Shown here piece by piece: positions 12,901-15,334 of a DNA stretch of 64,000 nt (positions within the stretch are counted from its first letter, which is position 1; each line of letters begins with the position of its first letter). The position numbers and the translations under genes are program-made. This DNA is from Ianthella basta (lineage: Eukaryota; Porifera; Demospongiae; Verongiida; Ianthellidae): positions 1,647,642 to 1,711,641 of the forward strand of contig OZ025869.1 in the NCBI GenBank assembly GCA_964019415.1. The letters are read 5' to 3'. The notes below the pieces were generated by a model that was not told the origin of the DNA, searched no databases, and saw only the letters and a program-made list of their open reading frames with translations.

Positions 12901-15334
12901 ACACAACAATACTGACCTGGTATTGCATCTCCTTACCTTGGATAGGTCCAGGGTTGGCCTCCACATCGCCAGCCAGAAGTAAAAGTGCTCGCAGGAAGAA
13001 ATAGGGAAGAAGCGACACAACTGGAGACAACATCCTGACAAGGAGGACCAAATGCCTTGTGAATGTAAGGCAGGAACTGGAGTCCTTGAACTGTGGGGAG
13101 AGCAAGGGAAATACCCTTTGAGACACTCACACATGGTAGAGAGGAAGTCACAAGTGATACAGGAATGTGTTACGCATGACACTGTGACAGCTGCAGGGTA
13201 TGCAGAGCAGTGTGGTGGAGCTCACTTACCCTAATGTGGCTCACAGAGGACCTTGGGAATGTAAACGACATCACTGAATGACCACGTACTCTCCTTGCAC
13301 ACTTTAATCCTCTCCGTAGCTTCAGCGAAGGAAATTTCAACAGCAGACTGCGAAGCTGCTTGGACACTGCTTGGCACTTGTACCTGCAAAATGAATAGCA
13401 TCATGTTAGTATTAACATTACATTACAACTATAACAATGGTGCACAAAACATATAAATGTGTATAAAAAGTGCCTTACAACAGAACTCACCTCATCCCAC
13501 CTGAAATACAGATAATGGTTAGAGTTGATAGACGGCATGCTAAAGTGCACAGGACGTCACATGTCTTCTGGTGTGGGCAGCGTCTGTGACCTACATTTGA
13601 CAGGAAGTGCTGTCAGTAGCTAACGGAATCAGCTAGTACTGGCAATGTACTAATAGTACTTGTTTCCATAGAAACCACCTCACCTAATGATGACTTTGCC
13701 TTCCGACGTCTCCGCCTCTTGGTTGAGTGAGGGAGTCCTTCATGTACAATTAACGCCAGGTAGAGGAATAGGTCAAGGGCAACCAATGTGGCTTGACAAG
13801 GGATGAACTCAAGCACTTCAGCCGTCTTCTCAATCACGTCATTAAAGGACGGGTTGTAGCTTGTGACAAGATAAAGATGGGTTTGTCCACTTGGCCCTTT
13901 ACGAGACACAGGAACCTTTATAGCAAGGAGGACAACACAACTCCTGACAGTTGGGAAGGTAACCATGTGCCTGCATGACCTGATGGTGTGTGCATGGCTA
14001 CAGCAGTAACTTGTACAAGCCGTGTAGGTTAACCTACAAGAACTGGGTTCACACATGTACATGTAGGTATGACAGTGGATTCATATAACAGAGCCATTTA
14101 CACAACCAACACAGTCGTGCAATGTCCCATTATACTGTAACAAAAGACGTGGCTAGACCAACATCATGCCGGAATGTCACCGCGATGTAAGGGGGCAACA
14201 ACACCACCACGAAGGTGTACGAGTGCCATCTGGTCCCACGAAGGGCGTCTACTGGGACCAGATGGCACTCGTACACCTTAGTGGTGATGTTGTTGCCCCC
14301 TTACATTGCGGTGACATTCCGGCTTGGTGTTGGTCTAGCCACGTCTTTTGTTACAGTTTATTTACCCATGACACGATGCTTTCTCTGTTCTCGGGTGAAA
14401 ACGGCGTTTTTAACATCAACGTGGACGGGTGACGCCGACCAATCACGTACAGCGTGGTTGCTTGGTGACATCTGGACGCTGCCCAGTGCTGCTGATGAGG
14501 AGTGAGATTCTCTGAAAAGGCCTTCCAGCACAGTGGCAAACCTCTAACTTTTCGCACAATTGCAGAGGTACCCTTTTTCTTGTTATTCACATTATACTCT
14601 TGTGGAGAAGGAGGCAGTACATGCAGTCAGTGACCCTTACTGTGTGAGGGTTCCACACTGACAAGTGGAGAAGAGTATCCTGTAGTCTAAACTCAAAGGG
14701 ACTGGTTTTGAGGTGGTCTCCACACTCAGCATTCACTGCCGGTAGTGGGCAGCCTAAACGGCACAATCCTGGGTTGTGTGACGTCCTCTCTCCAAACAGA
14801 CAACTCAGGCAATTGTCAATCACTTCAGTATGAGGCCACCCAACACAGAGCAGACCATTACCCAGGTGAGGATTGGGCCAGTTGGGGTCTAAGTGCAGAA
14901 TGGAATAGCAACAAGTCAATGAACATGGAGTCTGGGTGGAGGTATGACAAAGATGACTAAGTGTGATGTGGGCACACTCCACAACAAGGAGTAGCTCAAC
15001 AGGTGCTTGGCAGTTACATGTACTATGAATCACCAATGTTAGTTAGTACACAGTGTGACACAACCAACACAGAACACACATGCCATGTCTGATGATGACC
15101 AACACACCAACCTGACACTGGTGTCTCTGAAGGTGAAGGAGTGATGAGCTGTGCTGAGATGCACACAGACGTCCACAGGAATAGACACAGGAAGAACACA
15201 CACATCACTGTTAGAACAAGGAATACGACATGCCCTGGAACATTTCCTGGTCTGGCAGGACCAAAGATGGTTGGTCGATAGGTTGAGCGTAAACCACGAG
15301 TAGGAGCTCTGTAGCGATTGTGGGAGTGCCTCAT
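876..15334 (-). CDS. 2A-split membrane protein plus CARD-NACHT-LRR gene, paralog A
   Basis: This is a multi-exon NLR gene with an upstream membrane module joined by a 2A peptide. Inferred coding exons, 5' to 3' on the minus strand: 15334-15108, 15022-14591, 14033-13684, 13500-13491, 13383-13230, 13090-12937, 7939-7655, 7543-5891, 5338-5270, 5025-4901, 3758-3548, 3383-3259, 2500-2402, 1954-1735, 1593-1471 and 997-876. Every junction has GT/AG ends and the phases agree throughout, with no internal stop that I can find. The first 440 or so residues are a membrane and Cys-rich protein ending at NPG. Residues after the 2A proline form a CARD-like domain, NACHT, LRRs, an acidic tail and a basic C-terminus (SSKRGRSGREGGQR). 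NLRs of this kind are cytosolic innate sensors; the ligand is unknown. Exons were placed by eye and need transcript support. The long 12937-7939 intron could hide another exon. Confidence 0.7.
998..1470. other. Intron between the A tail exons
   Basis: This is intronic by the gene model. I see no strong coding signal. A short AG...GT-bounded segment near 1210-1240 could be a microexon but has no support. Confidence 0.4.
1471..1593 (-). CDS. Acidic Asp/Ser tail exon, paralog A only
   Basis: This exon of 123 bp (41 codons) is symmetric phase 1-1, bounded by tctatgacag and gtgagc. It is almost entirely Asp, Ser and Asn (DDNDSDDYFHDSSDG...) and ends LSPS, like the end of the preceding LRR exon. 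I see no counterpart in units B or C. An acidic intrinsically disordered tail is the only property I can read. Confidence 0.6.
1735..5338 (-). CDS. LRR exon series, paralog A
   Basis: Six short exons encode leucine-rich repeat-like segments: 5338-5270 (EEWREVEDLLDRI), 5025-4901 (LSTVVKLLCLQHVTEIE), 3758-3548 (NKTMKKLTLYNDD ... NSSLSDVDLEF), 3383-3259 (SVEHLTLFGVPVDVL), 2500-2402 (ELKLNEMEQALAGMSRLETL) and 1954-1735 (DSLMLKFGMHILKGISKNNS). Phases are 1-1, 1-0, 0-1, 1-0, 0-0 and 0-1, all consistent. LRRs in NLRs usually hold the sensor surface and autoinhibit the ATPase. A further possible exon near 2985-2918 does not fit the phase and was left out. Confidence 0.75.
2038..2207. repeat. (CA)n microsatellite
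   Basis: An almost pure CA dinucleotide run of about 170 bp lies in the intron before the last LRR exon of paralog A. Homologous but length-variable tracts lie at 23377-23461 and 23715-23827 (unit B) and 45151-45315 (unit C). Confidence 0.98.
3957..4815. mobile_element. Non-autonomous inverted-repeat DNA element, unit A only
   Basis: About 860 bp is absent from the matching intron of units B (near 24395) and C (near 47645). The ends read GGTTATGGCA and TGCCATAACC as terminal inverted repeats. The flanks ATGCGCTTG and ATGCGTGTA suggest a degraded 8-9 bp target duplication, as made by hAT or Mutator-type elements. Internal inverted segments around AGCCAGAAAGATAT (about 4294 and 4575) make it partly foldback. 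No transposase is visible. Confidence 0.65.
5891..7543 (-). CDS. NACHT ATPase exon, paralog A
   Basis: This single exon of 551 codons carries the NACHT module. Walker A is GAPGVGKST (about 7220-7260) and Walker B is LFVLDGFDELP (about 6985-7025). A sensor-1-like DVILTSRS follows, then the winged-helix region with the GxP-type SIPIVLSIICQVY, and the NLR-typical FFFIHLTVQEFLAAVY near 6300-6340. A Gly run (AGGGGGR) sits at its start. NACHT domains bind and hydrolyse ATP to drive NLR oligomerisation. The exon ends with the first LRR-like segment (QLHSLRIID) and the donor gtgagt. It is nearly identical to the copies at 25698-27350 and 49181-50830. Confidence 0.95.
7544..7654 (-). other. 111-bp in-frame intron encoding a hydrophobic segment
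   Basis: This intron has no stop in the reading frame of its flanking exons and its length is a multiple of three. If retained it would add 37 residues, including YICAVYMSKLCICIIMLCV, a membrane-like segment, between the CARD-like and NACHT domains. The same intron occurs at 27351-27461 and 50831-50941 with almost no change. It may be a normal intron or a regulated one. Confidence 0.6.
7655..7939 (-). CDS. CARD-like death-fold exon, paralog A
   Basis: The exon follows the acceptor ccatccttag, enters in phase 1 and covers about 95 residues. The pattern LKLKRKGVI ... REILYDHLKHHGSEDTL ... FCKVAIAADGYPNMQKLG resembles CARD or related death-fold helices (helix 2-3 loop with G-V-I, then L-x-x-L-x-x-x-G, then YP-x-x-x-x-L). 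Such domains recruit adaptors or caspases by homotypic contact. The donor after 7655 (gttggt) is weak, but the 111-bp intron restores phase 1. CARD versus another death-fold class cannot be settled by eye. Confidence 0.7.
8060..8405. repeat. Tandem array derived from a pogo-like element end (unit A)
   Basis: The array starts with TACAGTGGAACCTGTCTATA, the type of end seen on pogo/Tigger-like elements (CAGTNGAACC, TA target). It continues as about ten imperfect copies of a 30-34 bp unit containing AAGGGCACACTGAAGAAG and GGACCTCTCAACTA. Matching arrays lie at 27870-28080 and 51345-51785 with different copy numbers. Single copies of the same end recur at 9240, 28950 and 52615. Confidence 0.75.
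8406..10461. other. Part of the long 2A-to-CARD intron, unit A
   Basis: This stretch holds CA-rich tracts, several copies of a short motif around tgatagtgtaaccacaac, and relics of elements with ends like GTGGAACCTGC. I see no exon that fits the gene's phases. One minus-strand frame at 9917-9714 is conserved in the three units and is listed separately. Confidence 0.6.
9714..9917 (-). other. Short open frame conserved in all three units
   Basis: A 67-residue minus-strand frame (contains LKLEVRKRQQN and AVPQYPANWQENLEMF) stays open at 29601-29398 and 53277-53074. It lies inside the long intron of the NLR gene, in the same direction, flanked by direct repeats of a tatttagcctttttctc motif. It could be a transposon relic or an unspliced exon. 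I do not recognise it, and most differences between copies change the residue. Confidence 0.3.
10463..11057. mobile_element. Long-TIR DNA element with an internal ORF (unit A)
   Basis: The two ends are inverted copies of each other for about 170 bp, starting GTAGATAAGAGATGAGAGT on the left and the complement on the right. Between them lies a plus-strand frame at 10672-10872 of 66 residues that contains NLSSEETSISQLVLDIVETP. Copies lie at 30153-30747 and from 53820 (right end lost). No transposase is present, so it is non-autonomous and may have captured host sequence. Confidence 0.7.
11080..11489. mobile_element. TA-flanked MITE (unit A copy)
   Basis: This is a 410-bp element with about 28-bp terminal inverted repeats beginning AGGCCCCGTTTACATTAAA and ending with the complement. 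Units B (30770-31180) and C (54425-54834) show clean TA dinucleotides on both sides, so a Tc1/mariner-type target is likely. Presence at the same place in all three units means it inserted before the unit duplicated. Confidence 0.8.
11818..11901. repeat. (CA)n microsatellite
   Basis: A CA run in the long intron of paralog A. The equivalent tracts in units B (31505-31610) and C (55155-55356) are longer. Confidence 0.97.
12937..13090 (-). CDS. 2A-like ribosome-skipping exon, paralog A
   Basis: This exon is bounded by ctctccccacag and gtaagg. It enters in phase 0 and leaves in phase 1. It encodes a hydrophobic stretch (LLPYFFLRALLLLAG) running directly into GDVEANPGP, which fits the 2A consensus D-V/I-E-x-N-P-G-P. 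In known 2A peptides the ribosome fails to join Gly to the last Pro, releasing the upstream chain and continuing translation. The next coding residues here are P-I-Q-V, then the CARD-like exon, so the cut would fall between the membrane module and the NLR. In sea urchin NLRs 2A sequences are N-terminal and can also act as signal sequences; here about 440 coding residues precede it. Confidence 0.8.
13230..15334 (-). CDS. Membrane/Cys-rich module of paralog A (exons 1-5)
   Basis: The start is the ATG at 15334, preceded by a 5' non-coding exon near 15.8 kb. About 35 basic residues precede a hydrophobic segment (GHVVFLVLTVMCVFFLCLF), suggesting a signal anchor with the rest outside. Exon 2 (15022-14591) is Cys-rich and contains LDPNWPNPHLGNGLLCVGWP and several CxxC-like pairs. 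Exon 3 (14033-13684) ends with a second hydrophobic stretch (ATLVALDLFLYLALIV) followed by TKRRRRRKAK, a plausible stop-transfer. A 10-nt microexon (13500-13491) and a basic exon (13383-13230) follow. I do not recognise the ectodomain family. A membrane receptor or ligand-binding role is inference only. Confidence 0.6.
14136..14589. mobile_element. Foldback/MITE insertion with 8-bp target duplication (unit A)
   Basis: This 454-bp insertion is flanked by CATTATAC at 14128-14135 and 14590-14597 and is absent from units B and C. Positions 14136-14356 form a nearly perfect palindrome (arms around GACCAGATGGCACTCGTACA), followed by about 230 bp of single-copy sequence. The 8-bp duplication suggests a hAT-like non-autonomous element. 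Its right edge coincides with the splice donor I infer for exon 2 of the membrane module. Confidence 0.8.

Follow-up and report, generated by a model that had tools for sequence, protein, structure and literature searches.

A tandemly repeated sponge gene family that appears to place a 2A sequence between a membrane protein and an NLR in one reading frame

Results

The window analyzed here, a 64-kb stretch of the genome of the sponge Ianthella basta (C2:1647642-1711641; the genome searched comprised 209 Mb in 96 contigs), carries three tandem units, A, B, and C, on its minus strand, each with one 2A motif and one exon encoding a NACHT domain. These units appear to represent a tandemly repeated animal immune gene family in which a membrane protein, a 2A sequence, and an intracellular sensor follow one another in a single reading frame. 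Each intact unit is probably one gene, with the membrane protein, the 2A, and an NLR of CARD-NACHT type encoded by one spliced frame. This gene model had been proposed for unit A in a first-pass annotation and was supported here by synteny at 52 of 55 2A sites, by the order of the exons in distant copies, by selection on exons 2, 5, and 6 and on a second subfamily, and by 2A exons that lack a methionine; from it we infer, in addition, a single transcript, active skipping, and a joint function in immune sensing.

The eight-exon chain of unit A

In unit A, eight minus-strand exons can be joined with AG/GT borders and matching phases into a chain of 994 codons without a stop. Exon 1 (15334-15112) begins with ATG and encodes a basic N-terminus and the first hydrophobic segment (residues 36-54), exon 2 (14888-14598) a Cys-rich region, and exon 3 (13896-13684) a second hydrophobic segment (residues ~203-226) followed by RRRRRK. 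Exon 4 (13500-13491) is a 10-nt microexon, exon 5 (13383-13230) encodes a strongly basic segment, and exon 6 (13090-12937) a third hydrophobic run, with its peak at residues 311-336, that leads into the 2A, LLLLAGDVEANPG/P. The frame continues with P-I-Q-V into exon 7 (7939-7655), with a predicted CARD fold, and exon 8 (7543-5891), with the NACHT domain. The claim that membrane exons, AGDVEANPGP, and CARD-like and NACHT exons chain together in phase was thus confirmed, and the same holds for unit B with 995 codons. The length of the upstream part had been overestimated: about 440 coding residues were proposed before the 2A, and the G of NPG is residue 345. A protein database search with residues 1-440 of the chain, in which 7991 candidates were scored, matched only the protein encoded by the window itself.

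Two junctions needed particular attention. The exon 1 donor had been placed at 15108, which is incorrect because the resulting 227-nt exon would be out of phase with exon 2 at 14888; the donor is at 15112, where the sequence is conserved in nine of nine aligned copies. The start of exon 2 at 14888 is supported in all eight array-type copies, and L046 and L048 also have an AG at this position. The microexon is required because exons 3 and 5 would otherwise be out of phase. A pattern search located it in five of the eight array-type copies (A, B, C, L031, and L035), and it was recognized by eye, with changes, in L032, L024, and L026 as well as in L046 and L047; the pattern gave one candidate in L045 and four in L048, one of them alike. 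The donor at the microexon is GC in L024 and L046.

The NLR part downstream of the 2A

Downstream of the 2A, the first-pass annotation had named CARD-like, NACHT, and LRR parts. The NACHT domain of unit A matches PF05729 (9.9e-17) in the open reading frame at 5877-7988, and this family is above its cut-off in units A, B, and C and in L075 and L076; the NACHT matches downstream of L055 and L047 have values of 5.2e-20 and 1.2e-22, and a CARD-like match at 29% identity lies behind L055. The structure predicted for exon 7 of unit A has a CARD fold (pLDDT 92.8), and Foldseek aligned this model to the Apaf-1 CARD with a TM-score of 0.74 and a probability of 1.00 at E 0.58. The same search gave no match at E 0.001 or better and a designed protein as its top hit, and the exon had no Pfam CARD match and no sequence match in the PDB, so that its assignment as a CARD effector domain is by predicted fold only. 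Candidate LRR peptides were seen by eye, and none of those tried matched a Pfam LRR family. The exon that precedes NACHT in L076, a locus downstream of the 2A of L047, resembles a death domain by eye and has no Pfam match.

The CARD exon of unit A contains no early methionine. A methionine is displayed at the first CARD codon in 5 of 15 aligned rows; the one that was checked, in L063 (read in L045), is GTG in the genome, so this M looks like a start-codon display rather than methionine, and it was rejected as a candidate start.

Arrays on C2 and distant copies

The unit structure is repeated along C2, where the NLR-type 2A sites lie in tandem arrays at 1.10-2.16 and 3.61-3.89 Mb. Synteny was counted over 55 2A sites on the minus strand, from 1.10 to 4.24 Mb, leaving out 4 other minus-strand and 8 plus-strand C2 sites. 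Exon 1 was present upstream of the 2A at all 32 sites of subfamily 1, to which unit A belongs, and at 20 of the 23 sites of a second subfamily. Its distance from the 2A is narrowly distributed, at 1647-1739 bp for 28 of the 32 subfamily-1 sites (the others up to 2392 bp) and at 722-743 bp for 19 subfamily-2 sites, with one at 1550 bp. A CARD-like or NACHT match precedes the next unit at 39 or more of the 55 sites, a lower bound because the searches concerned scored 79 of 442 and 150 of 789 candidates; when two sites without an NLR match were opened, one was found to have a NACHT domain at 47% identity. Exon 1 had 84 matches in the genome, counting unit C as two pieces, two of which contain a stop. 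With 55 2A sites on one contig, the family probably has over a hundred genome-wide.

Beyond the arrays, exons 1, 2, 3, and 5 occur in order in L045 (C3), L046 (C4), L047 (C12), and L048 (C6), at 31-71% identity per exon. Among eight subfamily-1 copies compared, the borders of exons 2, 3, 5, and 6 are AG/GT in every copy, and exon lengths differ by multiples of three, apart from exon 1 of unit C and exon 6 of L035 and L026. A search with the frame of the L047 2A exon returned 13 proteins.

A second subfamily

Subfamily 2 and unit A have in common the first 159 nt of exon 1 and the sequence that precedes it, but in subfamily 2 a different 2A exon follows, with 126-131 codons from a conserved methionine to the GD[V/I]E core. 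At three of five loci examined in the C2 array, exon 1 is predicted to splice in phase to this 2A exon; of the other two, L038 has lost the frame and exon 1 of L037 is truncated. A database search returned 121 relatives, and the 2A motif was present in 104 of the 120 examined, with a search profile that included the 2A. Three of the relatives have best identities to this genome of no more than 59, 63, and 62%, indicating an origin in other genomes or in sequence missing from this one. In an alignment of 81 relatives, drawn from 98 proteins of at least 130 residues among the 120, the fixed 2A residues are 86-98% conserved, compared to a median of 72% elsewhere.

The locus L048 (C6:3636500-3640900) is a hybrid: subfamily-1 exons 1, 2, 3, and 5 are followed by what is left of exon 6, which lacks the 2A, and by a 2A exon of subfamily 2, a structure that suggests module exchange. 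About 36 more matches to the subfamily-2 2A exon, several of them shorter, are spread over ~4 Mb at 4.0-8.4 Mb of C4 as candidate 2A sites.

Selection on the upstream exons

Ratios of nonsynonymous to synonymous substitution rates (dN/dS) were pooled over copies, omitting exon 4 and three sequences that have lost the frame, namely exon 1 of unit C and the exon 6 copies of L035 and L026. Exons 2, 5, and 6 gave values of 0.27, 0.42, and 0.34, respectively, in every case lower than either wrong frame, and thus show purifying selection. In subfamily 2, dN/dS was 0.33-0.71 for the 114-120 codons before the 2A (15 pairs with no frame control, from 6 of 12 loci, the near-identical L034 and L036-L038 and also L025 and L052 being left out), and this apparent purifying selection upstream of the 2A likewise supports the gene model.

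The 2A motif

AGDVEANPGP is encoded on the minus strand at ~12955 (unit A), 32413 (unit B), and 56438 (unit C), and these three sites are the only ones in the window where NPGP is encoded. They contain the core D(V/I)ExNPGP. In the family, the core is preceded by a leucine-rich context (ALLLLAG or AILLLRSG, judged by eye) of the sort found in the L-rich classes of 2A motif that have been described (PMC12846837). Skipping of the Gly-Pro bond at this motif is putative. Across the genome, a degenerate 2A pattern had 355 matches and the reversed control pattern none, which places its occurrence beyond chance.

Two settings were seen among these sites: frames with endonuclease matches, as in non-LTR (long terminal repeat) retrotransposons, and sites before NLR exons. 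In the first setting all seven frames tested, from the 22 loci L009-L030, match endonuclease, five of them above the Pfam cut-off, which makes it worth asking whether the 2A and the exons upstream of it are what remains of a retrotransposon or virus that inserted in front of NLRs. We regard this as highly improbable, given that the upstream module has no Pfam match above cut-off, that it appears to be split by introns, and that NLR exons follow at least 39 of the 55 units. The 2A itself may have descended from a retrotransposon-type element, an origin with which the data are compatible.

The start site and points against the gene model

Several observations weigh against a single gene that starts at exon 1. 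The first concerns exon 6, in which units A-C have a methionine; a peptide starting there would run for 29 residues to the G of NPG, and dN/dS is 0.75 before this methionine and 0.24 after it, based on few changes. Translation or transcription of the NLR could begin within exon 6 (MLSPVV...NPGP), with the 2A acting as a dual signal sequence, its role in sea urchin NLRs, and the upstream exons belonging to a separate membrane-protein gene or to a minor isoform. The methionine, hydrophobic run, and 2A of exon 6 do resemble the 26-residue sequences published for sea urchin, the constraint in exon 6 is stronger after the methionine, and in subfamily 2 the methionine of MPIS, just inside the 2A exon, is kept in 85% of the 81 aligned rows and in 41 of 48 distant rows. 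Initiation at MPIS would, however, still leave ~130 residues before the 2A. In distant copies, the 2A exon has no methionine before the 2A in six of nine (L047, L055, L056, L057, L058, and L061; ten loci were opened, and L059, which lies outside this family, was excluded), and in L055 exon 5 lacks one as well. These six, on C12 and at 15 Mb of C2, are close relatives of one another, and L057, with a stop 21 codons upstream, is probably broken. The acceptor of the 2A exon is also conserved and puts this exon in phase 0 with exon 5, and exons 2, 3, and 5 are free of stops in the frame of the chain and have GT donors in eight of eight copies. Taken together, a start within exon 6 is unlikely, if the most serious of the alternatives considered, and a start at exon 1 is preferred; the chain then gives 345 residues before the split, rather than the ~26 from the start in the sea urchin type. 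The view that an internal 2A of this kind is unlike the known N-terminal cases thus held up against the published 26-residue sequences (PMC4981915), even with the shorter upstream part.

Other points against the gene model concern the copies and their exons. The upstream part is broken in unit C, L035, L026, L038, and L057; in unit C, exons 2-8 are each open, and the 4 additional nucleotides in exon 1 cause the loss of the joined frame. In L045 and L047 the exon 2 acceptor position has no AG; in both of these and in L048 the end of exon 2 comes earlier, and L048 also lacks a GT following exon 3. The exon 2-3 junction of these copies is tentative. For five subfamily-2 loci on other contigs than C2, the 1.1-2.1 kb examined upstream contained no credible exon 1, and the second of the two C2 sites opened had no NLR match within 7 kb. 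Exons 1 and 3 gave no sign of purifying selection: pooled dN/dS was 1.9 for exon 1 (array copies) and 1.6 for exon 3, both above their wrong frames, and the MRHS frame of exon 1 had a value of 0.81 among distant copies, again above the other frames. The coding status of exon 1 consequently rests on its open frame, MRHS being the only frame open in all nine copies compared, on its kept ATG, and on its kept hydrophobic segment. The structure model of the subfamily-2 upstream module was poor (pLDDT 48) and was not interpreted. Finally, the splicing of all exons is predicted from the genomic sequence, and the membrane topology from hydropathy and charge.

A second frame in exon 1 (MVEHEALPQ...), open in five array copies and L048, was considered and rejected, as it contains stops in three of four distant copies.

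Units B and C and other features of the window

Unit B repeats the chain, free of stops, with exon 1 at 34090..34312, exon 2 at 33597..33887, exon 3 at 33142..33357, the microexon (exon 4) at 32949..32958, exon 5 at 32690..32843, exon 6 with the 2A at 32395..32548, exon 7, CARD-like by similarity to unit A, at 27462..27746, and the NACHT exon 8 at 25698..27350. In unit C, the frame-shifted exon 1 lies at 58120..58346, exons 2-6 with their introns at 56420..57907, and the CARD-like exon 7 and NACHT exon 8 at 49181..51223; all of these features are on the minus strand.

Intron 2 of unit A contains, at 14115-14376, an inverted repeat with arms of 124 nt that are 90% complementary and separated by 14 nt, part of which falls in a stretch without alignment to units B and C. 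An element resembling a miniature inverted-repeat transposable element, with 31-nt terminal inverted repeats, lies at 11076-11493 inside the long intron that follows exon 6 in unit A. Elsewhere in the window, an open frame at 42293-44464 is Gag-like and matches zinc knuckle and aspartyl protease domains, and long Pro/Ser/Cys-rich repeat tracts with several frames open are found between the NLR units at 16900-18437 and 36176-38264.

Discussion

If each intact unit is one gene, translation would begin at exon 1 and would produce a small membrane protein ending in the 2A (StopGo) sequence, with the order basic N-terminus, first hydrophobic segment, Cys-rich part, second hydrophobic segment, basic stretch, and hydrophobic tail. 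The first hydrophobic segment would enter the membrane with the basic N-terminus inside, placing the Cys-rich part outside, and the second would return the chain before the basic stretch, so that the last hydrophobic run would be in or near the exit tunnel as the 2A acts. The ribosome would usually skip the Gly-Pro bond, releasing the membrane protein with the hydrophobic 2A as its C-terminal tail and going on to produce a cytosolic CARD-NACHT NLR that starts with P-I-Q-V. Where the bond is formed, the NLR would be tethered to the membrane protein, and three products would thereby come from one mRNA: the membrane protein, a soluble NLR, and, as a minor form, an NLR bound to the membrane. A fixed ratio of membrane protein to NLR and a receptor role for the membrane protein, both proposed in the first-pass annotation, may be further features of such a gene.

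This scheme depends on an active 2A. If the 2A were inactive or rarely active, the product would mainly be a membrane-anchored NLR fusion, which would fit the suggestion of membrane-bound NLRs in sponges (PMC12909245) and the description of 2A activity as requiring more than the core, chimeric sequences often being inactive (PMC12846837). We consider an inactive 2A improbable, since the octapeptide is kept amid divergence: the exact motif is present in 45 of 48 subfamily-2 relatives below 65% identity, a count that the search profile, which included the 2A, favors. For the family as a whole, the case falls a little short of even, and we offer only tentatively the description of an internal 2A by which each mRNA would yield a membrane protein with its Cys-rich part outside, a cytosolic CARD-NACHT sensor, and a tethered leak product, with modules swapped between phase-compatible exons.

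A multi-copy animal immune family thus appears to use the 2A internally, as viruses do. If this is true, a host gene family makes two proteins in one frame by skipping, and a membrane protein, at the surface, is coupled to an intracellular NLR at the level of translation in host immunity. The membrane-bound NLRs reported in sponges may be explained in this way. The family would also provide 2A variants and module swaps that arose in nature, allowing tests of how skipping efficiency partitions an immune sensor between cytosol and membrane.

The occurrence of 2A sequences in NLRs is already known, as are sponge NLRs with transmembrane domains (PMC12909245). Our literature search returned no matching description of an internal 2A behind a multi-exon membrane module; Rao 2025 lay outside that search and may list such genes. 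The closest known system is that of the sea urchin S. purpuratus, for which 14 NLRs with a 26-residue N-terminal 2A are described (Roulston 2016, PMC4981915). The units described here are similar in having a D[V/I]ExNPGP 2A before an effector domain and NACHT and a hydrophobic run before the motif, and partial skipping, which the sea urchin work supports together with two product fates, could split the products between compartments in both (PMC4981915). Unlike the sea urchin sequences, the units here have ~345 codons (subfamily 1) or at least ~130 codons (subfamily 2) before the 2A.

Among sponges, transmembrane domains in NLR architectures are described for Dysidea avara, having first been reported in A. 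queenslandica, and membrane-bound NLRs were suggested (PMC12909245). Those genes resemble the units here in combining NLR and transmembrane parts; the main text of that paper uses none of the terms skipping, NPGP, and StopGo. If the D. avara NLRs are genes of the same kind, a 2A would part the membrane portion from most of the NLR molecules.

The position of the 2A, internal and between two modules of one frame, is that of viral polyproteins such as those of picornaviruses (PMC12846837), with the difference that the units here form a cellular, intron-split, multi-copy immune gene. The 2A of non-LTR retrotransposons, mentioned in two of the sources consulted (PMC4981915, PMC11512398), shares the motif and the leucine-rich context, and frames of that type are present in this genome; in the units described here, by contrast, the frame continues into CARD-like and NACHT exons.

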